Of a stretch of 38,563 nucleotides of DNA, positions 1 through 13,551 are shown piece after piece. This DNA is from Ferrimicrobium sp. (GTDB lineage Bacteria > Actinomycetota > Acidimicrobiia > Acidimicrobiales > Acidimicrobiaceae). The notes beneath the pieces were generated by a model, which had not been told where the DNA came from, made no database searches, and was given only the letters and a program-made list of their open reading frames with translations. The position numbers and the translations under genes are program-made. The first letter of the stretch is position 1. Each line of letters starts with the position of its first letter. The DNA is taken from NCBI RefSeq assembly GCF_027319265.1, contig NZ_DAHVNP010000004.1, forward strand, positions 1 to 38,563, written 5' to 3'.

Positions 1-2115
1 CTAGCTGACAAGGGTGTCCGCCTTGCCAACTTCCATACGACCTCACTCTGTTCGCCTACCCGAGCCTGTCTGCTTACCGGTCGCAATCATCATCGCAGTG
101 GGATGGGCAGAGTAGCCGATCTGGCCATCGGTTTTCCTGGATATTATGGAAAACCGCCAAAAGAGAACGGCTTTCTCTCGGAGGTCCTGCGCAACGTTGG
201 GTTCGCCACCTATGCGGTCGGCAAGTGGCACCTGACACCCGACGATGAGACGCACATGGCGGCCTCGAGGTCGTCTTGGCCTCTCGGACGTGGTTTTGAT
301 CGCTGGTATGGGTTTCATGGAGGCGAGACGAGCCAGTTCTCCCCTGCTCTCTACCATGACAATCACTCCATCCGCCCCCCACGTCCGTATGTTGAGGGGT
401 ATCATCTCACCGAGGACCTCACCGACCACGCGATTGAGTTCATCGCTGACCTACGGGCGGTCGAAGTCGATCGTCCCTTCTTCCTGTACTTCTGCCCAGG
501 CGCCTGTCACTCACCGCATCAGCCACCGGAACGATGGGCGCATCGGTATCGTGGGGCCTTCGATGCCGGTTGGGATCGGTGGCGTGAGCAAACGTTCCAT
601 CGGCAGGTTGCCATGGGGTTGTTGCCTGAGGCGACTGTCCTCTCACCGCGACCCGACTGGGTTCGTCCCTTTGACGATCTCAACCAGGAGGAGTCTGCGT
701 TGGCAGCGCGATTCATGGAAAAGTTTGCGAGCTTTCTCTCTGACACTGACGAGCAGATCGGACGGCTGGTGGACTTTCTTGACGATCTAGGAGAACTCGC
801 CAATACGATCATCGTTCTTGTCTCTGATAATGGTGCGAGCGCTGAAGGAGGTCCGGAGGGATCCATCAACGATGTGCGCCTAGCTAATCTTGACCCTGCG
901 ACGACGAGCGAGATGTACGCGAGGATCGATGAGATTGGGGGACCAACCAGTCACAATAACTACCCCTGGGGTTGGACAATGGCTGGCAACACCCCGTTTC
1001 GACGATGGAAACGCGAGGTACACGAGGGCGGAGTCGCTGACCCCTGTATTGTTGCTTGGTCGGCGGGTTCGTTAGCGACCGGAGAGATCCGTCACCAGTA
1101 TGCCCACGCCATCGACGTGCGGGGGACGATTCTGCAGTTGCTAGGGGTTGATGAACCCAGTCATCTCGACTATGTACCGCAGACCTCTGTCGATTCGGCC
1201 AGTTTTGCTTCGATCCTCGCTCCGCACACGGCCAGCGCCTCAGCGATCCGAACGACACAGTATTACGAGATGTTTGGTTCTCGCGCCCTCTACCACGAGG
1301 GATGGAAGGCTGTCACCTTCCATCCGATCGCCCCGCTCTATGATGACAAGAACCCCAACGACGATTTTGATGAAGACCAGTGGGAACTCTACGATGTAGC
1401 CCACGACCTCACCGAGACACGAGACCTGGCAAACGAATACCCTGAACTGCTCGAATCGATGAAGGAACGATGGTGGCGGGAGGCCGAGCAGAACCAGGTG
1501 CTCCCACTCGACAATCGCGTGCTCTGGGCTCTGGTGCACCCTAAACCCGACCAGCGTGGACCGGTGGATATGATGCGCTATTTTCAGGGAGCTTCGCAGG
1601 TCCCGGAGGCAGTGGCGATCGATCTCAAGTATCGGTCGCATCGTCTGCTTGTCGACTTCACCTTGGAACCAGGAGACCCCCCTGCGGGTGTTTTGTTGGC
1701 GCAGGGTTCGGCACTAGGAGGTTGGTCGCTCTATCTTCTCGACGGCTTTGTCCACTACAGCCTCAATCTGTATGGGAAGTCCATCACCACGGTGAAGAGC
1801 ACCTCTCGGGTCACCGCTGGATCGCACTCCGTTCTCTTTGCCTTCACCAAAGACGAACGAGACGGTGGAGACGCACTGTTGCAACTCGACGATGCTGCCG
1901 GCGCGTCCTTGCATGTTGAACGAGTGCCGCCAGCGGGATGGAACGGGGTGGGTGCAGGACTCACCTGTGGCTATGAGTGGGGACCATCGGTAGGGCAGGG
2001 CTACGCGGCTCCCTTCCCATTCCCAGGCATCATCCATCGGGCTCGTATCGAGGCACTTGGGCCCAAGGTGCGCGATCCACTCGCGGAGATCGAGGCGATC
2101 TTATCCCAGCAGTGA
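1..2115 (+). CDS. Arylsulfatase (sulfatase family), 5' end outside window
   Basis: Type I sulfatase, which hydrolyses sulfate esters using a formylglycine made from an active-site Cys. The frame is open from base 1, so the true start lies upstream; 704 codons are present. The signature CSPTR is encoded at 49-63, with the modifiable Cys at 49-51, preceded by NFHTTSL as in the family and followed by a TGR. Further sulfatase landmarks are YAVGKWHL (the GKWH motif), FLYFCPGACHSPHQPP, VSDNGAS (metal-binding DNG) and a C-terminal beta-rich region. An ATG at 103 lies after the catalytic Cys and cannot be the start. Overall length and motif order resemble the roughly 780-residue actinobacterial arylsulfatases, so about 70-80 residues are probably missing. 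A formylglycine-generating enzyme would be needed but is not in this window. Natural substrate unknown. Confidence 0.93.
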   Translation, partial: LADKGVRLANFHTTSLCSPTRACLLTGRNHHRSGMGRVADLAIGFPGYYGKPPKENGFLSEVLRNVGFATYAVGKWHLTPDDETHMAASRSSWPLGRGFDRWYGFHGGETSQFSPALYHDNHSIRPPRPYVEGYHLTEDLTDHAIEFIADLRAVEVDRPFFLYFCPGACHSPHQPPERWAHRYRGAFDAGWDRWREQTFHRQVAMGLLPEATVLSPRPDWVRPFDDLNQEESALAARFMEKFASFLSDTDEQIGRLVDFLDDLGELANTIIVLVSDNGASAEGGPEGSINDVRLANLDPATTSEMYARIDEIGGPTSHNNYPWGWTMAGNTPFRRWKREVHEGGVADPCIVAWSAGSLATGEIRHQYAHAIDVRGTILQLLGVDEPSHLDYVPQTSVDSASFASILAPHTASASAIRTTQYYEMFGSRALYHEGWKAVTFHPIAPLYDDKNPNDDFDEDQWELYDVAHDLTETRDLANEYPELLESMKERWWREAEQNQVLPLDNRVLWALVHPKPDQRGPVDMMRYFQGASQVPEAVAIDLKYRSHRLLVDFTLEPGDPPAGVLLAQGSALGGWSLYLLDGFVHYSLNLYGKSITTVKSTSRVTAGSHSVLFAFTKDERDGGDALLQLDDAAGASLHVERVPPAGWNGVGAGLTCGYEWGPSVGQGYAAPFPFPGIIHRARIEALGPKVRDPLAEIEAILSQQ

Positions 2116-4417: not shown

Positions 4418-4428
4418 CTAGTGTCCCT
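4418..4428 (+). repeat. Left terminal inverted repeat of the IS630-like element
   Basis: CTAGTGTCCCT at the left end matches, inverted, the sequence at 5648-5658. The TA at 4419-4420 is the presumed duplicated target. The transposase stop codon (TAG on the minus strand, 4418-4420) overlaps it. Confidence 0.7.
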
Positions 4429-5570
4429 CCTCAGAAGTTTGCGGAGAAACAATAGGCTCCAGGTATTTCTGCATAGAAGCGAAGATCTCGTCGGCGCTCT
4501 TGGTCGAGATGAAGGGCTTGGGGTTCTCGTTCCAGGCTTTGGTCCACTTGGTAATTCCTCTGTTAAGTTCGGTGACGCTGCGCTGGAGGTACTTGGTGGT
4601 TAACGCTGAGAACCATCTCTCTACCTGGTTCATCCAGGACGAGTACGTTGGTGTGAAGTGGAACTCGAAACGGGGATGGGCTAGGAGCCAGGTTCTCACC
4701 GACTCGGTCTTATGGGCTGCGTAGTTGTCTAAGACAACGTGAACTCCCAGCTCCTTGGATACTTGTCGGTCGATAAGCTCTAAGAACTGAAATGAATTCA
4801 ACTGCCCTGTGGGCGTTCCTCATCTTGGTGATAACCTTGCCCGAGGCGACATCAAGGGCAGCGTAGAGATTACTAATACCATTGCGCTTGTACTCGGTCG
4901 TACGACGCAGAGGAACCCCTGGCACCATGGGGAGCATGGGCTGGGTACGGTTCAGAGCTTGCACCTGGGTCTTCTCGTCGACGCGAGAGTTCGATCGTGC
5001 GCCTCAGGTGGGTTGAGATAGATACCAGCAACGTCTCTGACCTTCTCGGTGAACTCAGGGTCATTGGAGATGGTAAAGCTCTCGACCATGTGAGGTTTGA
5101 GCCCAAAGGTTCGCCAGATCCACCGCAGCCGTAGAGGGGGATACGCCAGCGAGAGCTGCCATGGTGTTGGTTGACCAATGGGTTGATGAGTCGGGTGGAT
5201 CAGTCGTGGTAGTGAGTTTGATAATCTCTGCGATCTTGTCATCTCCATGGGTTCTTGGAGTCCCAGATCTTGGTGCATCCGAGAGTGTCTTTACCCCAAA
5301 CAATGAGAACCGCCTTCTCCACTTATCTACTGTTTGAGCTGATAGGGAGAGTTTTCTGGCAATCTCGGTGGTCCCCATCCCCTCAGCTGCGTACAAAGCG
5401 ATCTTGGCACGACGTACCTGAGCCTGCGGGGCCGTTGTTTGACGAACAAGGGCTTCTAAGCGCTCTCGTTCCTCCGCAGAGAGCGTCACGTGATAGAGGA
5501 TCGGGCGTCCACCGACGTTCCTTCCACGATCCTCGTCTGTTGATTGCTCTTCTTGCTTTCCCATAACCAA
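4418..5570 (-). pseudogene. IS630-family transposase, three frameshifts
   Basis: Four overlapping reading-frame pieces together make one IS630 transposase. Residues from 5570 to about 5130 carry the N-terminal helix-turn-helix (LSAEERERLEALVRQ, then TEIARKLSLSAQTVDKWRRRF). The frame then shifts to continue at [15 protein letters not shown] to about 5000. It shifts back for [17 protein letters not shown] and ALDVASGKVI to about 4790. It shifts once more for VVLDNYAAHK, FTPTYSSWMNQVERWF and the end. The DDE triad is still visible as VDEK, LDNY and NQVERW, so decay is recent or caused by small indels rather than large deletions. All neighbouring genes outside the accessory stretch are intact, which argues against sequencing error. 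Confidence 0.85.
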
Positions 5571-5658: not shown

Positions 5659-6022
5659 AGTTTCGGCAGCTTCCCCTTGGTGGTCCAGAGTTACGCGAAC
5701 TCCTGGTCCAGAGTTGCGCGAATCGTTACTCCAGAGATATAAGAACAATCTGCTCCGCAAGGGCTTGAGGAATACTTCACCTCCTTCCGAACATGCTCTG
5801 TTCCTGAGACCACCGAGCTAACGAACCAGAACCCAGGTAATCACCCACTGAACTGGCGTCTCTACACTGGACCCTATCGATAACCGACCAGATCGTGTAC
5901 ATTTGCCCTTGGCGAAACTTTGCTAGAGGAGCGCGATAGGAGACTCGAGTTAAAGACTTTGCGAAACGGGCCGATGCCGATGACAGCTGCGCTACCACCC
6001 CCAGCCCAGACAGGAGCAGGAA
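5659..6022. other. Spacer with repeat remnants upstream of the glycosylation island
   Basis: About 360 bases. Apart from the tandem repeat at 5681-5722 I see no gene. Base composition shifts toward A/T near 5900, marking the left boundary of the following island. An AGGAG ribosome site lies just before the ATG at 6023. Confidence 0.4.
5681..5722. repeat. Tandem 19-bp direct repeat, IS-end-like
   Basis: TGGTCCAGAGTTACGCGAA (5681-5699) is repeated as TGGTCCAGAGTTGCGCGAA (5704-5722), with a partial third CTCCAGAG near 5730. Short tandem TGGTCCAG-type repeats occur at the ends of IS21-type and related elements, so this may be a leftover end of a second insertion sequence. That assignment is from memory of the pattern and is inference; no transposase of that type is in the window. 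Confidence 0.5.
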
Positions 6023-6493
6023 ATGAAAACCGCCACCATGACCGCCACATCAAGTGTGCAACATTCCAATTCCTATTACGTCCCAGTCGGCGACTACACA
6101 CCTTCCGAACGAAAACCACATTACCTTGACAATGCCTTAACAACAGGCCAGATAACATGTGGAGCCCTATCGGAAGACCTTGAAGAGAGAATTGCCCAAG
6201 CTCACGGGAAACGGTTCGGAATATTCATGAATAGCAGAAGTTCGGCGCTATACATCGCCCTCGCCGCCTTGAAGCAACACGATGGCTGGGAAGACGGAGA
6301 CGCAATCATTTTTCCAGGAACGATATTTGTAGCAACAGCAAACGTAGTCCTTCACAACGGCCTACGTCCAATCTTTGTCGACGTTCACATCAACTCTTTC
6401 AACATCAGACCAGACCTAATCGAAGGCCGTATAACCGCGTGCACGAAATGGATCCCTGACAGCATCGACGAATACTTCGGAACTACAAAATGA
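6023..6493 (+). pseudogene. DegT/DnrJ/EryC1/StrS aminotransferase with internal deletion
   Basis: The first ~138 residues are the N-terminal part of a PLP-dependent sugar aminotransferase (DegT family): NALTTGQITCGALSEDLEER, FMNSRSSALYIALAAL, IIFPGTIFVATANVVL and RPIFVDV. Intact members run near 370-400 residues and carry the PLP-binding Lys roughly halfway along. Here the protein jumps at about residue 139 (base ~6440) to a 17-residue tail, CTKWIPDSIDEYFGTTK, so the catalytic Lys and most of the fold are lost. The stop overlaps the next gene's start as ATGA, an operon-like junction, so an in-frame internal deletion is a better explanation than simple truncation. The ribosome site AGGAG is present. 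The intact enzyme would have aminated a nucleotide-linked keto-sugar for glycan assembly. Confidence 0.75.
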
Positions 6494-7650
6494 CATCCCA
6501 TGCTGTAGTCTGGGTAGGACCGTACCTGTCAACTACTGGATATGGCGCTGTCACTCGCAACTACATCGGAGCGATGGCACTCCATGCGCAGAACATCTAT
6601 GTAGTCAATATAGGAGAGGATCAGCAAAAATATATTAGCGAACTGGAGAGCGAAAGGCTGTCGCTGTATTCAGCCCCAGTGAAGGTGGCAGAACAACACG
6701 TTATACTTGTAATAAATCTCACTCCAAACGAAGCCAGGGAAATCCTAAACCCTATGCTAAACATCCTTAGACATCTGGGTTGTGCAGTCACTAAAACAGT
6801 AAAGGTAACAATCTTCGAAACACACTCACTTCCGCCCACTTGGTTGCCAGCACTAAACGAATTTGACGCTGTCATAGTTCCTAGCCAATTCAATCAGCAG
6901 ACGTTTACTTACGCAGCATATTCCAAGGAGAACACCTACGTAGTGCCTTATGCAATAGATCACAGCCAATTCTATCCGAACCACCGAACCAGGAAATCGT
7001 ATCATAACATTGGCTATCTCTTCGGCCTCTCCCATCGCAAGGGAGTAGAACTGCTACTAGAAGCATATACAATAGCCTTCACGGATCGCGACGATACCCT
7101 TCTAACCCTAAAGTCGACGACACACGTAGGGTCAGGCGGAATAACACTACTAAGTAACATAAAAGAATTCCTAGTACGTAGATTCGGGAAAACACAGCTG
7201 AACCATCTACCTCGCATTAGCATCGAGATCGGACCGACAACGAACGACCAACTACGTGACTTCTACTGGAGCCTCGACCTCTATGTATCGACTGACCGCG
7301 CCACTGGATGGGGAATGCCAACCATGGAAGCGATGGCTTGCGGTAAACTGGTAAGTGCAATAGACTACGGTGGTGGAACAACTTTCCTCCACACATGGAA
7401 CGGTTATCCAATCCCAACCACTGGACGCTTAGTTCCAGTTGATGGACGACTACTGGATGCTGCACCGATATATGCTGGTCAACAATGGGAAGAAACGACC
7501 GCAACGGCCCTTGCAGAAACCATGACTTCCGCTTTAGTTGATTCCTCACACCAAGAGAAGAGAGCCGCCGCCCTTGAGGCAACTCGACACTTTTCATTCA
7601 CAACTGTCGGATTACAACTCTTAAACTGCTTGGAATCAATCGGCACGTGA
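6490..7650 (+). CDS. GT4-type glycosyltransferase
   Basis: A 386-residue soluble retaining glycosyltransferase of the GT-B fold, family GT4. Visible blocks are GPYLSTTGYGAVTRNYIGAM (N-terminal acceptor-side loop), DAVIVPSQFN (start of the second lobe), GLSHRKGVELLLEAY (donor-binding R-K) and the final RATGWGMPTMEAMACGK motif followed by DYGGGTTFL. In the usual E-x7-E donor motif the first Glu is Thr (Thr272), while the second is kept (Glu280); this may alter the donor or weaken activity. The start overlaps the preceding aminotransferase stop (ATGA), so translation is probably coupled. The sequence is A/T-richer than the backbone. It would act on a cell-surface glycan or glycoprotein; donor and acceptor are unknown. 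Confidence 0.85.
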   Translation: MTSHAVVWVGPYLSTTGYGAVTRNYIGAMALHAQNIYVVNIGEDQQKYISELESERLSLYSAPVKVAEQHVILVINLTPNEAREILNPMLNILRHLGCAVTKTVKVTIFETHSLPPTWLPALNEFDAVIVPSQFNQQTFTYAAYSKENTYVVPYAIDHSQFYPNHRTRKSYHNIGYLFGLSHRKGVELLLEAYTIAFTDRDDTLLTLKSTTHVGSGGITLLSNIKEFLVRRFGKTQLNHLPRISIEIGPTTNDQLRDFYWSLDLYVSTDRATGWGMPTMEAMACGKLVSAIDYGGGTTFLHTWNGYPIPTTGRLVPVDGRLLDAAPIYAGQQWEETTATALAETMTSALVDSSHQEKRAAALEATRHFSFTTVGLQLLNCLESIGT

Positions 7651-7950
7651 ACTCACCTTCCGACCCAGTGGGACTCCACCTTCACAACCTTGGCCCACAA
7701 AATACTCGTGTCAAGAAACGAATGTGCCATGCATCGACGTCAAATATTAATATCGCAACAAGTAATGGTGCCAGGCTGACGATAATCCACAACATCACGA
7801 CCAGTTACGGCCGGCCCACAACCAATGACAATAGCCACCAGAACCTGGTCATAGCAGACCCCACCATTATGAAGCCACCAACACAATATCCCCAACACCC
7901 TCTAACAACAACCCACAAACAGACCATCCCCAATTCCAAGGACATATTCA
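7651..7950 (+). other. Spacer between glycosyltransferases; dubious low-complexity frame
   Basis: A frame of 108 codons from GTG 7647 to 7973 overlaps both neighbours slightly and so looks operon-like. Its translation is very rich in Thr, Asn, His and Pro, with no motif and no hydrophobic core. I regard it as decayed coding DNA or spurious. AAGGAC at about 7938 can serve as the ribosome site of the next gene. Confidence 0.4.
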
Positions 7951-10833
7951 ATGCACAATTCCATCATAATTGAAGGCCAAACCGACCCGAGGGGAAGCTA
8001 TGGCAGAGTTAACCTTTACCTAGCAGATGCTCTCCGGCGCAAAGGGGTTGAAGTTCAAGTCAGATCTTTCGACCAAGACCAGAACCAGTTAGATGCCACA
8101 CTCCCAACCCTGTCTCTGGAACCATTTGCAACCTCCATGTCAGAACCATCCATCATCATTCGCCAAACCTTTCCACCCAACTTCACCAATCGCTCCAAAA
8201 GCACGCCACTGATTGTAGTACAACCCTGGGAAATCGGCTCCGTTCCCTATGAGTATAAAGTCGCGCTAGAAACGGTCGACGCCATATGGGTTCCATCACG
8301 ATGGTCAAAACAATCGTGGGTAACCGCAGGTGCACATCCTTCCAAAATCTTCATCATTCCCAACGGTATACCCAGTTCACAGGTCAATACAACCGAGCGC
8401 ACATTCGACAGTTCAAGCCAACTCCACATCCTGTTTGTGGGTGGACCAATCGCTCGTAAAGGAATAGACCTGGCATTTTCGGCCTTAAATCTTCTACCTG
8501 ATACCCAATTACAGCAGTGCACACTTACAATCAAATCAATCGGCCATGATACATACTATCGTGGTCAAGACCGAACGACCGACCTGTTAAAACACTACCC
8601 CCGTGTAGCAGCCCGTTCCACCGTAATCACAACTTATCTCAACGAGGCAGAGATGACATCACTCTATGACAGTGCTGACGTCCTACTTCACCCATACTTC
8701 GCGGAAGGTTTTGGCATGCCCGTACTTGAGGCGATGTCGCGTGGAACCGTACCGATTGTAACCGCTGGCGGATCAACAGATGACTTCTGCGACATTAGCA
8801 ATAGCATCCCTATAGACTCAACACTTGAATTAACTAGTGCTCCCCTGAATTCAACTGGCTTTAGCGGTGGACCACAATACCATTTACGACCTGACATTGA
8901 AAGCATCGCCCACCACCTATCCGAGCTTATAGAAGAGAGACAGAAGCTACAGGAATTAAGTAATCAAGCTATCCGTACAGCTAAACAGATGACTTGGGAT
9001 AGCGTTGCACTGGCTGGCATGAAGGCCCTCTCGAACATCACAGCTGGATCGCAGGATATCTTTACCCTGGCATTAGAATTGGCCGGGATACCGCCAAGCA
9101 ACTCAAGTAACACCTATTCGCTCCTAAGTAGCTTGATCACCCTGAAGGACGTACATAGTGCTGAATTAGTAATTGCGACTTCCTCGAATTCAGCGGAGCA
9201 AAGCAACCTTCTGTGTCAGATGTCATCTTTAGCAAAGGAGATGCCGGACATCTGGACTAACTCCCTGCATCGCCAATACCTCGAAGAGCAGCTTGGTTAC
9301 ACTACCTCAGACGTTGAAAACTACTTGCGCCCACAATTAGATCCATCGTCGATCCGTGAATTATTAACAAGCGCGGCTTTAGAGAGTCAGCACATACAAT
9401 ATCATGGCTCACAATCTACTCTGAAAGCACTCCGTAGTGCGGGACTGAAATGCCATGAAGTGAACCAAATTCATACGGTTGCGGTAAGCGATCTGGATAA
9501 CTATCAATGCGTTATAGTAGAATTGGGAGATCAGCGCCCCCTACTAAATCAGGAAGTAATCAGGATGTTGATCGCAAATGCAGAACTCCCCTGCAACATC
9601 ATTATAATCACTGAGAACCAAACACACCAGGATTATGCCGGCGCATTTATTAATTCGCTCAAGACAAACCCCATTTCAGGAATACGACTTGCCGCAATCA
9701 CCACATCTACTCCTACACTCAATCCGCTTTATATATATATGTTAACGTTCAATCGGATCACACCCGCCAAACAAAACGATAATCCTCTGATACACGTTGC
9801 CTCTAACAATTCTCCAACAACTGGCTTCGACCAAGATCTCCGAACGTTATCCCATGAGTTGTCGTTACACGGGAAACTTAGCGCCAGCAGTATTCCGATA
9901 GCTCCCATGCCAAGAGACAGCGACGTATCAGTCTTCTTCATGCCATTGAATCATCTACCGTTCTCCACATACAACATCAGAGGTGCTCGTGTTCTGAGGA
10001 CGACAGTCGAGGTAGTCAAACCAAATGCAAAATTTATAGGCTATGCCGGCACATTCGATCAAATATGGTGTATGTCAAAATTTGACCACCAACAGTTCCT
10101 ATCAGAGGGTATCCCTGAAGAAAAGCTTTATATCATTCCATGTAGTGCACCAGCAAGTGTCTCCCCTGAGAGGATCACAGAATTTCGGACCACAAACATG
10201 CGACGCAAGCGGTTTTTATCTGTCTTCAATTTCGAACAACGCAAGAATCCTGTAGCCCTCTTGATGGCATATTCACAACTATGGAGCCGTCACAGAGATG
10301 CAACGTTAACGATCAAACTGAGTGGTAACATCACAAGTAACCAATTCTTTAGATGGGCGGCAACACTACCTGATCTGGATCTGAACTGCCTGTCATCGCT
10401 AACCATAATTACGAATACTCTTAGTAGACAAGCAATGAACAAATTATACCTCGAACACGACATCTTTGTCTTACCTAGCCATGGTGAAGGTTTTGGCTTA
10501 CCATTTCTAGAAGCACTCTCGTTTGGAATGATAGTTATAGCGCCTTCTTGGGGTGGCCAACTCGACTTCTTGAATCCAGAGAACTCTTATTTATGCCCTG
10601 GTGAATTGGTAGATGTGCATCTTACCGATGTAGAACTCTTTCGCAATAGCCTTTGGTTTGAAGTTGATATTCCTACTCTCGCATCCATCATGGAGTCCGC
10701 CATTCTCGATGGAGGTTACCTCGACAAGGTAGCGAACGGCCTAGCGAGTGCAGAAGAAATGGCACAAACGGACTACGGACGGTTGCTCAAACCCGCACTC
10801 CACGCAATAGGCTTCTCACCGTCAGTACCCTAG
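7951..10833 (+). CDS. Two-domain GT4 glycosyltransferase (960 residues)
   Basis: One polypeptide with two GT4 catalytic domains. Domain 1 (about 1-350) has GSYGRVNLYLADALRRKG at the N-terminus, VDAIWVPSRWSKQSW, FVGGPIARKGIDLAFSAL and EGFGMPVLEAM, with the E-x7-E glutamates at 252 and 260. A linker of about 250 residues (360-610) has no family I recognise, though it contains a Rossmann-like stretch around CVIVELGDQRPLLNQE. Domain 2 (about 615-950) has YAGTFDQIWCMSKFD, FNFEQRKNPVALLMAY and GEGFGLPFLEAL, with glutamates at 846 and 854, followed by PSWGGQLDFL. Both active sites look intact, so it may add two sugars in succession. No signal peptide or membrane segment is seen. Low-GC composition and decayed neighbours point to horizontal origin. 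Confidence 0.88.
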   Translation: MHNSIIIEGQTDPRGSYGRVNLYLADALRRKGVEVQVRSFDQDQNQLDATLPTLSLEPFATSMSEPSIIIRQTFPPNFTNRSKSTPLIVVQPWEIGSVPYEYKVALETVDAIWVPSRWSKQSWVTAGAHPSKIFIIPNGIPSSQVNTTERTFDSSSQLHILFVGGPIARKGIDLAFSALNLLPDTQLQQCTLTIKSIGHDTYYRGQDRTTDLLKHYPRVAARSTVITTYLNEAEMTSLYDSADVLLHPYFAEGFGMPVLEAMSRGTVPIVTAGGSTDDFCDISNSIPIDSTLELTSAPLNSTGFSGGPQYHLRPDIESIAHHLSELIEERQKLQELSNQAIRTAKQMTWDSVALAGMKALSNITAGSQDIFTLALELAGIPPSNSSNTYSLLSSLITLKDVHSAELVIATSSNSAEQSNLLCQMSSLAKEMPDIWTNSLHRQYLEEQLGYTTSDVENYLRPQLDPSSIRELLTSAALESQHIQYHGSQSTLKALRSAGLKCHEVNQIHTVAVSDLDNYQCVIVELGDQRPLLNQEVIRMLIANAELPCNIIIITENQTHQDYAGAFINSLKTNPISGIRLAAITTSTPTLNPLYIYMLTFNRITPAKQNDNPLIHVASNNSPTTGFDQDLRTLSHELSLHGKLSASSIPIAPMPRDSDVSVFFMPLNHLPFSTYNIRGARVLRTTVEVVKPNAKFIGYAGTFDQIWCMSKFDHQQFLSEGIPEEKLYIIPCSAPASVSPERITEFRTTNMRRKRFLSVFNFEQRKNPVALLMAYSQLWSRHRDATLTIKLSGNITSNQFFRWAATLPDLDLNCLSSLTIITNTLSRQAMNKLYLEHDIFVLPSHGEGFGLPFLEALSFGMIVIAPSWGGQLDFLNPENSYLCPGELVDVHLTDVELFRNSLWFEVDIPTLASIMESAILDGGYLDKVANGLASAEEMAQTDYGRLLKPALHAIGFSPSVP

Positions 10834-10909
10834 TCCAACTTCGGCACCAGATCGCGACACACCCCTCTGTCAAAGTAAGAATCACTTAAGCAACGACGCA
10901 CGGAATATG

Positions 10910-12100
10910 CTAACTTGACAGTACTGTCCTAACCAGCAGTGCATCCCCTTGCCCTCCGCCCCCACAGAGAGCAGCAGCCCCGACGCCTCCACCCCGTTCG
11001 GCGAGCTCTGTGATCAGCGTCAGGGCAAGACGGGCGCCAGATGCCCCGATCGGATGTCCCATTGCAATCGCGCCTCCGTTGACGTTGACGACATCTTCAC
11101 TAATCCCCAGATGATCCATGGAGGCGACCGCTACCGCAGCAAAAGCTTCGTTGATCTCAAAAAGATCGATATCTCCGACACTCATCCTGGCACGTCGCAG
11201 CGCATCGTTAATCGCATTAGATGGCTGGTGCAACAGCGACGTATCGGGACCAGCGACCTGACCATAACCAACGATTTCAGCGAGTGGCGTCAAACCCAAC
11301 TCCTTCGCCTTCGCCGGTGACATCACGATCAGCGCTGCGGCACCGTCGCTGATCTGAGAGGCATTGCCCGCTGTGATGGCTCCGTCTTTGCTAAAGGCAG
11401 GCCGCAGTTTGCCAAGTGACTCCATCGTCGTCTCTGGGCGGACGCCCTCATCGGTCTCAACGATCAGATCATCACCCTTGCGTTGGGGAACTGCCACAGG
11501 AACGATCTCCTTGGCCATTCTTCCGTCCTTGATCGCCTTGGCCGCGCGTTCATGGGACAGCATCGAGAAGCGATCCTGTCGCTCTCGAGGAATCGGGGTG
11601 ACCTGCAGATAATGCTCGGTTGCGAGGCCCATGGCCATCTTGTCGAACGCACAAAAGAGCCCGTCGTAGAGCATCGAGTCGATGAGCTGAACATCACCCA
11701 TGCGAAAACCGCCCCGCGCCCCGGGGAGGAAGTAGGGGGACTGGGTCATGGACTCCATGCCACCGGCCACCACAATGTCAGCCTCCCCAGCCCTAATCAT
11801 GAGATCCGCTAGGTGTAGGCTATTGAGACCAGAGAGACACACTTTGTTCACGGTCGTAGCGGGCACCGTCATCGGTATACCAGCACCAACCGCAGCCTGT
11901 CGTGCAGTGATTTGACCCTGCCCAGCCTGGAGCACATGCCCCATAAAGACATACTCAACCATCTCCGGTGCCAGGCCAGCTCGAGTGAGTGCACCCTTGA
12001 TCGCGATCGATCCGAGCTGCATTGCTGTCAACGATCCAAGTGCGCCTGAGAGCTTCCCGATAGGGGTTCGTGCTCCTGAGACGATTACAGAATTTGCCAT
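10910..12100 (-). CDS. Acetyl-CoA acetyltransferase (thiolase)
   Basis: A 396-residue biosynthetic-type thiolase condensing two acetyl-CoA to acetoacetyl-CoA, or the reverse. The nucleophile is Cys88 in NKVCLSGLNS; NEAFA, GHPIGASGAR and the C-terminal CGGGGQGDA complete the active site. MANSVIVSGARTPIGK is the family N-terminus, and AAAGGA sits 7 bases before this ATG; an upstream in-frame ATG at 12145 would add 15 unrelated residues. It is divergent from crotonyl-CoA carboxylase/reductase with 83 bases between start codons. The context suggests it supplies acetoacetyl-CoA for the C4 branch leading to crotonyl-CoA. The last codons contain a 12-bp palindrome, GACAGTACTGTC (10917-10928). Confidence 0.95.
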   Translation of the reverse strand: MANSVIVSGARTPIGKLSGALGSLTAMQLGSIAIKGALTRAGLAPEMVEYVFMGHVLQAGQGQITARQAAVGAGIPMTVPATTVNKVCLSGLNSLHLADLMIRAGEADIVVAGGMESMTQSPYFLPGARGGFRMGDVQLIDSMLYDGLFCAFDKMAMGLATEHYLQVTPIPRERQDRFSMLSHERAAKAIKDGRMAKEIVPVAVPQRKGDDLIVETDEGVRPETTMESLGKLRPAFSKDGAITAGNASQISDGAAALIVMSPAKAKELGLTPLAEIVGYGQVAGPDTSLLHQPSNAINDALRRARMSVGDIDLFEINEAFAAVAVASMDHLGISEDVVNVNGGAIAMGHPIGASGARLALTLITELAERGGGVGAAALCGGGGQGDALLVRTVLSS

Positions 12101-12171
12101 CGTGCGTCCTTTCTTCGTACTTCCAGTATATGAGAGACTCATCATGCATCAAGAATCCTCCCCTTTGCTGG

Positions 12172-12183
12172 TAGCATACGAGG
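12172..12183 (+). promoter_or_regulatory. Putative leaderless promoter of ccr (-10 TAGCAT)
   Basis: TAGCAT (12172-12177) is followed by 6 bases and then the ccr ATG, the spacing expected if transcription begins at the start codon. No clear -35 is seen. No Shine-Dalgarno is present at normal spacing. Confidence 0.35.
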
Positions 12184-13551
12184 ATGACAACGGAACTCAT
12201 CGATGCCATCCTCGCCGACGCGAGTGGAGAGGAGCTGGCTCAGCTGTCCCTCCCTGACCACTATCGAGCCGCCTTTCTCCGCAAGGATGAGATCTCGATG
12301 TTTGAAGGGGTTGCTTCGGCAGACAAAGATCCCTCACGCTCCTTGCACGTCGACGAGGTCCCGATGCCTGAACTCGCGCCCGATGAGGCGGTAATCGCCG
12401 TGATGGCCTCATCAATCAACTACAACACCGTCTGGTCCTCACTCTTTGAACCGGTGCCAACCTTTGACTTCCTGAAACGAATGGGGCGTTCGCACAACCT
12501 CTGGAACCGTCGCCATGACCTTGACTATCACGTGATTGGCTCCGACGCCTCAGGCATCATCGTTCGAGTCGGCTCCGCAGTGCGCAATTGGAACATAGGC
12601 GATCGAGTGACGATCCACTGCAACTACGTCGATGACCAAGATCCATCGTCTCACGATGACTCGATGATGGCTGCAGAGCAGCGCATCTGGGGCTTTGAGA
12701 CGAACTTTGGTGGACTTGCCGATTTTGCCATCGTCAAAGCCAATCAGCTCATGCCAAAACCTGCCCATTTGAGCTGGGAGGAGGCGGCGGTTAACCCGTT
12801 GTGTAACTCCACTTCCTATCGTATGATCGTCTCCAAAAATGGAGCACACATGACCCAGGGTCAAGTGGTGCTCATCTGGGGTGCCACCGGTGGAATCGGG
12901 AGTTATGCCGTACAGTACGTGCTCAACGGTGGCGGCATCCCCGTGGGAGTCGTCTCATCCCCCGGAAAGGCAGCCCTACTGCGTGAGATGGGCTGTGAAT
13001 ACATTATCGATCGCTCAGCCAACGGGTATCGCTTCTGGAAGGATGAGAACACCCAAGACGAGAGCGAGTGGCGACGTTTTGGCGGCGATATTCGCGCCCT
13101 CGTCGGAGAGGATCCCGATATCGTCTTTGAGCATCCTGGGCGTGAGACGATGGGGGCCTCAGTCTACGTCGCCAAGCGCGGTGGGTTGATCATGACCTGC
13201 GCCGCCACCACTGGCTATCGCATCGAATACGACAATCGCCACCTCTGGATGAAGCTCAAGTCCATCAAGGCCAGCCATTTCGCCAACTATCGTGAGGCGT
13301 ACGAGGCCAATAAGCTCATCGCGAAAGGTAGGGTCCAGCCAGTGCTTTCTGCAACCTTTGACCTTGACCATGTAGGTGAAGCCGTTAATGTCGTTCGCGC
13401 GAACCTTCACGAGGGCAAGGTAGGTATTCGCTGCCTGAGCCCTGCCGATGGACTCGGCGTCACCGACCAGGCCCTACGCGGCCGTGTCGGTGAGGACAAG
13501 ATCACCCTCTTTCAGCGATTTGCTCGCGCCAAGACAGTGGAGAATACATGA
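12184..13551 (+). CDS. ccr: Crotonyl-CoA carboxylase/reductase
   Basis: A 455-residue NADPH-dependent enzyme of the medium-chain dehydrogenase superfamily that reductively carboxylates crotonyl-CoA to ethylmalonyl-CoA, in the cytoplasm. The NADPH fold is marked by LIWGATGGIGSYAVQY. The four residues known to form the CO2 pocket in the Kitasatospora enzyme (N81, F170, E171, H365) have counterparts here: Asn81 in NYNTVW, Phe171-Glu172 in WGFETNFGG and His365 in KASHFANYREAYEAN. It is therefore expected to carboxylate rather than only reduce. Its stop overlaps the next gene (ATGA), coupling it to an epimerase. With the divergent thiolase it forms the core of an ethylmalonyl-CoA pathway or extender-unit branch; mutases and mesaconyl steps are not in this window. 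Confidence 0.96.
   Translation: MTTELIDAILADASGEELAQLSLPDHYRAAFLRKDEISMFEGVASADKDPSRSLHVDEVPMPELAPDEAVIAVMASSINYNTVWSSLFEPVPTFDFLKRMGRSHNLWNRRHDLDYHVIGSDASGIIVRVGSAVRNWNIGDRVTIHCNYVDDQDPSSHDDSMMAAEQRIWGFETNFGGLADFAIVKANQLMPKPAHLSWEEAAVNPLCNSTSYRMIVSKNGAHMTQGQVVLIWGATGGIGSYAVQYVLNGGGIPVGVVSSPGKAALLREMGCEYIIDRSANGYRFWKDENTQDESEWRRFGGDIRALVGEDPDIVFEHPGRETMGASVYVAKRGGLIMTCAATTGYRIEYDNRHLWMKLKSIKASHFANYREAYEANKLIAKGRVQPVLSATFDLDHVGEAVNVVRANLHEGKVGIRCLSPADGLGVTDQALRGRVGEDKITLFQRFARAKTVENT

Follow-up and report, generated by a model that had tools for sequence, protein, structure and literature searches.

A methyltransferase (MT) domain is present in the majority of the GT41 enzymes encoded in enterobacterial flagellin islands, according to the account of these islands in PMC4875605. 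The type B GT2 of Clostridioides difficile is a glycosyltransferase (GT)–methyltransferase fusion as well, described as adding two rhamnoses and proposed to methylate them, and its authors suggest that methylation may stop extension (PMC5207246). Geobacillus islands are reported to contain GT4 enzymes together with separate methyltransferases (PMC5109656), and a flagellar enzyme of the GT2 family is described in PMC7874193. A further parallel comes from the lipopolysaccharide O-antigen system, where a single WbdA chain comprises two or three GT modules and WbdD provides methyl or phospho-methyl capping (PMC11231755). The protein family analyzed here shares with the enterobacterial GT41/GT2 enzymes the presence of a GT and a fused AdoMet methyltransferase in one polypeptide, and its surroundings recall the enterobacterial islands, which differ from strain to strain and contain DegT genes as well. 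The enterobacterial enzymes, however, belong to GT41 or GT2 and not to GT4, and the parts of PMC4875605 that deal with them mention neither a second GT module nor a decayed methyltransferase. With the C. difficile GT2 the family has in common a GT joined to a methyltransferase domain, in many members a location near fliC, and probably the addition and methylation of two sugars, whereas the C. difficile enzyme has a GT of the Pfam 00535 type, only one GT domain is named in its description in PMC5207246, and its methyltransferase domain is present. The dual mannosyltransferase WbdA likewise has two GT modules per chain and makes a glycan whose end is capped; here the likeness is one of description only, and the capping terminator is a separate coiled-coil protein (PMC11231755). 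GT-methyltransferase fusions in flagellin islands are thus already known, and the gene described below extends this biology and does not overturn it.

The window, by which we mean the whole stretch of DNA that was analyzed, comprises 38,563 nucleotides of a Ferrimicrobium contig. An unbroken open reading frame on its forward strand (7951-10833) encodes a protein of 960 residues (P0001), which the ORF call, Pfam and its homologues identify as a glycosyltransferase with two GT4 modules, A and B, on either side of a probably decayed methyltransferase. Module A occupies residues 1-360 (7951-9030, forward strand; 372 bits with the gtA profile). It is followed by a helical spacer (residues 361-440, 9031-9270; profile match E=1.5e-5 at Z=20000), by the methyltransferase slot, decayed or replaced (residues 441-606, 9271-9768), and by module B (residues 607-960, 9769-10830; 266 bits with the gtB profile from residue 655), all on the same strand. 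The Pfam scan of the protein detected Glycos_transf_1 (PF00534) in two stretches (E=3.3e-29 overall), likewise Glyco_trans_1_4 (PF13692), and no family of its own in the linker, at about residues 360-610. The donor motif Glu-x7-Glu, which the initial annotation had reported for both domains, was found on inspection of the residues at E252 (8704-8706) and E260 (8728-8730) in module A and at E846 (10486-10488) and E854 (10510-10512) in module B. The basic phosphate-binding residues R169, K170 and K195 in module A and R764, K765 and K789 in module B are all kept as well, so that each module combines a GT-B donor lobe with Glu-x7-Glu and basic phosphate-binding residues, as expected of GT4.

For structure prediction, a mixed full-length alignment seemed to stack fragments of module A onto module B, and therefore two half-protein alignments were folded separately with AlphaFold2. 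The donor lobes of both modules were folded confidently. In module A the mean pLDDT of 10-residue blocks was 71-96, except for 36-39 at residues 41-60 and 58 at residues 301-310; in the donor lobe of module B it was mostly about 83-96, with a lowest value of 71. Residues from about 574 to 655, which include the first part of the acceptor lobe of module B, were predicted with low confidence, the first ~50 residues of this module are divergent, and the family B profile matches the window protein only from profile position 73 on. Of the original description of two complete, fused GT4 domains, the two fused modules are therefore confirmed by Pfam and AlphaFold2, and the word complete needs this caveat for module B. 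Solved GT4-like enzymes among the matches listed (GlgA, the glycogen synthase of Pyrococcus; the viral GT 3oy2; HepE; PglA) share the GT-B type donor lobe, but are shorter (357-506 residues over the 50 matches listed) and only 10-20% identical.

Homologues of the window protein revealed a tripartite GT4-methyltransferase-GT4 protein of 973-1093 residues, here called A-MT-B, which occurs mainly in the taxonomic family of the window. Matches at E<=1e-20 were found in 9 of 296 genomes of the class, and matches at E<=1e-15 in 24 of 42 genomes of the taxonomic family, the own genome being included in both counts; several of the relatives are long and match in two distinct stretches. Searches of PDB sequences, plasmids and phages with the window protein returned general glycosyltransferases. 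Profile scans of wider genome and viral contigs were made with generic GT4 patterns and cover only the matches listed, so they are silent on the frequency of the family. The titles and abstract starts listed in literature searches included no paper on a flagellum-linked GT4-methyltransferase-GT4 protein and, for Ferrimicrobium and flagella, nothing on this gene.

The middle region of the relatives is a methyltransferase. Pfam Methyltransf_23 was found between the GT4 modules of all three fused relatives that were scanned (E=2.3e-14, 3.4e-12 and 1.1e-14), and 17 of the 18 aligned relatives have, exactly or in closely similar form (FSLDPTYIRPY for the third motif in L024), the SAM-binding glycine loop (motif I), GHxxE and WLDxxHxRPY. 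The exception, L057, has lost motif I and GHxxE and keeps a form of the third motif. The 18 rows include three cut or truncated proteins (L054, L057 and L061), which were left out of the identity table of 15 relatives. L062-L066, which have another module order or a single module, were not aligned as fused relatives, and L027-L030 (different architecture), G477, G598, the G012 match and the second G287 match were set aside. No region is better conserved among these 15 than the methyltransferase, whose mean pair identity is 0.456, compared with 0.412 for A, 0.345 for B and 0.308 for the spacer. The helical spacer precedes the methyltransferase in the tripartite relatives and also ends the stand-alone module-A (gtA) paralogues of the window's own genus; its residues D400, D433, W435 and R441 are invariant in six aligned rows. 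The window protein has the layout of this family, as the gtA, hel and gtB profiles all match it and place module A, the spacer and module B in order. Two further two-GT4 proteins, L062:145-3240 and L063:5334-8513, have a B-like module before an A-like one by match positions, and the contig of L063 also carries a flagellin and a FliD-like gene.

Between its spacer and module B the window protein differs from these relatives. None of motif I, GHxxE and WLDxxHxRPY is present in residues 441-606; the glycine-rich motif I of class I SAM methyltransferases is thus missing, and motifs and profile agree that the two GT4 modules no longer enclose an intact SAM methyltransferase. With 166 residues, the slot is about 40 short of the mean of 206 in the 15 relatives. 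Mean identity to these relatives is 0.176 in the slot, 0.350 in A, 0.303 in B and 0.225 in the spacer, the values for A and B being near normal for the family and that for the spacer somewhat low. Since the methyltransferase is the best conserved region elsewhere in the family, constraint was lost mainly in the slot. A profile built from the methyltransferases of 17 relatives gave nothing against the window protein at E<=10 for 20,000 sequences. A frameshift hiding an intact methyltransferase was ruled out by searching all six frames of the region with this profile, where the best match, in the gene's own frame, had E=0.11.

The initial annotation had described the linker as matching no family known to it and as containing a Rossmann-like segment. 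The first part holds as far as Pfam is concerned, but the region is not an orphan, as 17 of the 18 aligned relatives have their methyltransferase at this place, and for this reason an unknown, novel linker was dropped as the leading reading. The Rossmann-like pattern was recovered by AlphaFold2, in a low-confidence model (block pLDDT 38-68 over residues 465-600) for which module-A fragments were the only added alignment rows, none of them covering the linker. The predicted elements are helix 465-476, strand 482-485, helix 488-496, strand 501-503, helix 512-517, strand 520-525, helix 530-543, strand 549-554, helix 557-572, strand 578-584 and strand 594-600. This is the order of the class I methyltransferase fold from its second strand onward, and at this pLDDT the prediction would fit strands 2-7 of the seven-strand Rossmann-like fold. 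From the position of the slot and this low-confidence secondary structure, we are fairly confident that the slot is a decayed methyltransferase and not a replacement.

Sequence comparison points only weakly to such a descent. The best local match given by hhalign put residues 477-503 in register with the segment directly following the SAM motif; its score of 21.7 exceeded the highest among 60 shuffles (18.9), but its probability was only 3.7%. The position-specific score of the slot was also in register and marginal (8 of 300 shuffles were as high), and residues 1-172 of the same protein outscored it (37.2 vs 35.2). These marginal statistics, the lack of a significant methyltransferase profile match in the window protein and the occurrence of the linker in the own genome only, among 395 sampled genomes of the class, would be expected if the methyltransferase had instead been replaced by an unrelated, perhaps new, small alpha/beta domain with its own role, e.g. 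in acceptor binding or spacing. We regard such a replacement as unlikely, as the slot is the same and the spacer before it is preserved, the predicted elements follow the methyltransferase order without the first strand, if at low confidence, and L057 provides a partly decayed methyltransferase within the family. A PDB fold search with a construct of linker and module B gave glycosyltransferase-type enzymes among the matches listed and was uninformative on the linker.

Comparison of the gene neighbourhoods of homologues showed clustering with flagellin and other flagellar genes. Of the 27 places that match the A-MT-B family in the genomes of the taxonomic family, 13, distributed over 11 genomes, have a Pfam flagellin gene within 20 kb; the count leaves out the short piece G321:C147:1-309 (102 residues of module B). 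As a control we used the 150 best places of a longer list for the general GT4 family PF13692, and none of them (0/150) was within 20 kb of a flagellin gene. When the comparison was repeated within the 20 genomes that contain both the family and flagellin, the counts were 13/23 for family places and 0/75 for the control. By Pfam, the fused genes of G193 and G214 have flagellin and FliD genes as neighbours, a flagellin gene adjoins the stand-alone module-A paralogue of G269, and FliD adjoins that of the window's own genome on contig C32. An FlgE-type hook gene (Pfam) adjoins the fused gene of G328, and ORFs of nearly the same start and the same length, which we infer to be FlgE-type as well, adjoin those of G327, G329, G330 and G331. 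Among 80 matches listed, flagellin-like genes were also found near fused B-A proteins of Desulfacinum infernum and a Verrucomicrobiales MAG and near an MT-A protein of a Sulfobacillus MAG; no methyltransferase match was found in the two B-A proteins, for the Verrucomicrobiales one among the 25 Pfam families listed of 30. For the window copy itself the linkage seen in many relatives was not observed: the window contains no flagellin match, and the two of the assembly are on contigs C32 and C29.

The clustering of the relatives with flagellin and other flagellar genes makes flagellin the likely target, and the unusual surface glycan suggested in the initial annotation can be narrowed accordingly. 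The family might otherwise act on another surface or exported glycan, capsule-like or of an S-layer, with the flagellar neighbours reflecting a shared island and not a shared target. Consistent with this, 14 of the 27 family places have no flagellin within 20 kb on their own contig, the family is missing, at E<=1e-15, from 11 of the 31 genomes in which flagellin was found, and four genomes have the family and no detected flagellin (seven have neither). A missing flagellin neighbour is, however, weak evidence, because many contigs are short. Shared islands would also have to account for the complete lack of flagellin near the general GT4 places, both in the best-listed set and in the matched genomes, for the FlgE-type neighbour of G328 and the four further ORFs inferred to be of this type, and for the recurrence of the flagellar association in other phyla, and we therefore give a non-flagellar glycan little credence next to flagellin as the target.

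The A/T-rich island noted earlier is real, at 46-49% GC: the kilobases of 6001-11000 have a GC content of 0.463-0.489, and other blocks of the window 0.531-0.626. The gene itself has 46.7% GC as compared with 57.2% in the rest of the window, and is the most deviant of 16 fused genes relative to their own surroundings. A decayed sugar aminotransferase is also present, as originally described. It is a truncated DegT-type gene (6023-6493, forward strand) that retains only its first third, covers profile positions 8-116 of 360 and overlaps with its end the start codon of the next gene (ATGA). The assembly has only three more DegT matches, all of them weaker than this one and weak in themselves, so an amino-sugar step may have been lost too. 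The next gene encodes a stand-alone GT4 of 386 residues (6490-7650, forward strand), which matches both the gtA and gtB profiles. Its donor motif reads DRATGWGMPTME, without the first Glu of Glu-x7-Glu, and on this residue change it is possibly an inactive or altered transferase. Just upstream of the island, on the reverse strand, two transposase-like ORFs (4418-5570; Pfam DDE_3 at 4418-4801 and HTH_32 at 5061-5570), which we take to be of the IS630 type, form separate remnants. At the left side of the window a sulfatase gene was recognized by Pfam (103-2115, forward strand), and an ORF near the fused gene of L060 (L060:5387-6925, reverse strand) has a start that looks presumably sulfatase-like. 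That the whole island is decaying and the gene is a drifting, unused relic would fit the A/T richness, the truncated DegT gene, the transposase remnants, the donor Glu missing from the neighbouring GT4, the lost methyltransferase and the long branch described below, but is improbable for a gene with an open frame of 960 codons, the donor-site residues of both modules kept and near-normal identities of A and B.

On its other side the gene adjoins a thiolase gene (reverse strand), a zinc-type alcohol dehydrogenase gene (forward strand; the two together at 10910-13551, by Pfam) and recR. In the congener G309 this trio, in unchanged order, also accompanies the fused gene, from which a module-A paralogue separates it, and homologues of the thiolase and the alcohol dehydrogenase were found beside or near fused or gtA genes of G309, G014, G296, G322 and G269. 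Flagellin and FliD genes are found on the same G309 contig as the fused gene, whereas contig C32 holds flagellin, FliD and the module-A paralogue in the window's assembly. The stand-alone paralogue was found in four genomes, all of the window's genus. A plain orthologous relationship between the window gene and the G309 gene at the same site was tried and rejected, as the tree of module B rejects the pair (AU p=0.0004); the tree of module A does not reject it (p=0.08). Grouping the window gene with G309, G014 and G296 together is rejected by neither tree (p=0.48 for A, 0.34 for B), and against a grouping with G322 and G323 the A tree gives a weak rejection (p=0.04) and the B tree none (p=0.17). 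The window protein forms a long branch with no firm place in both trees.

Within the genus, different modules are damaged in different species. The fused genes of two congeners (L047:12902-15979 and L048:7317-10238) have damaged donor sites in module A: in G308 the RKG motif is changed to RAG and E252 to Q, and in G309 RKG has become AGG and the EGFG stretch ENYG. The methyltransferase motifs and the donor residues of B are intact in both proteins. The window species has lost the methyltransferase, with A and B intact. Among relatives from outside the genus a damaged module was observed in 2 of 16 relatives (L022 in B; L057 in MT), versus 3 of 3 inside it (Fisher p=0.01), a comparison to be read only as a lead, since it was made after seeing the data and on related rows, with three of the 16 incomplete. 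It is conceivable, if speculative, that this genus, which also has a stand-alone copy of module A near its flagellin, is dismantling the fused enzyme one module at a time, with variety in the flagellar glycan arising from the knock-out of single modules and the dead methyltransferase serving as a structural spacer.

On balance, the window protein is probably a flagellin-glycan transferase of the A-MT-B family that lost its methylation step. The intact family is likely to build and methylate a short glycan on flagellin: modules A and B would each add one sugar, in the cytoplasm before export, to an acceptor that may be flagellin itself or the growing glycan, and in the relatives the methyltransferase module would methylate or cap the product. 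In the window organism the SAM-binding strand and glycine loop would be gone and the later strands left as a structural spacer. With its methyltransferase slot decayed, this organism would make a glycan that is unmethylated or capped by another enzyme. The analysis brings to light a recurrent flagellum-linked GT4-methyltransferase-GT4 protein in the window's taxonomic family. The module-by-module loss in the genus is the part most worth following, and the natural series of intact, A-dead and MT-dead proteins could reveal the role of each module in the flagellar glycan.
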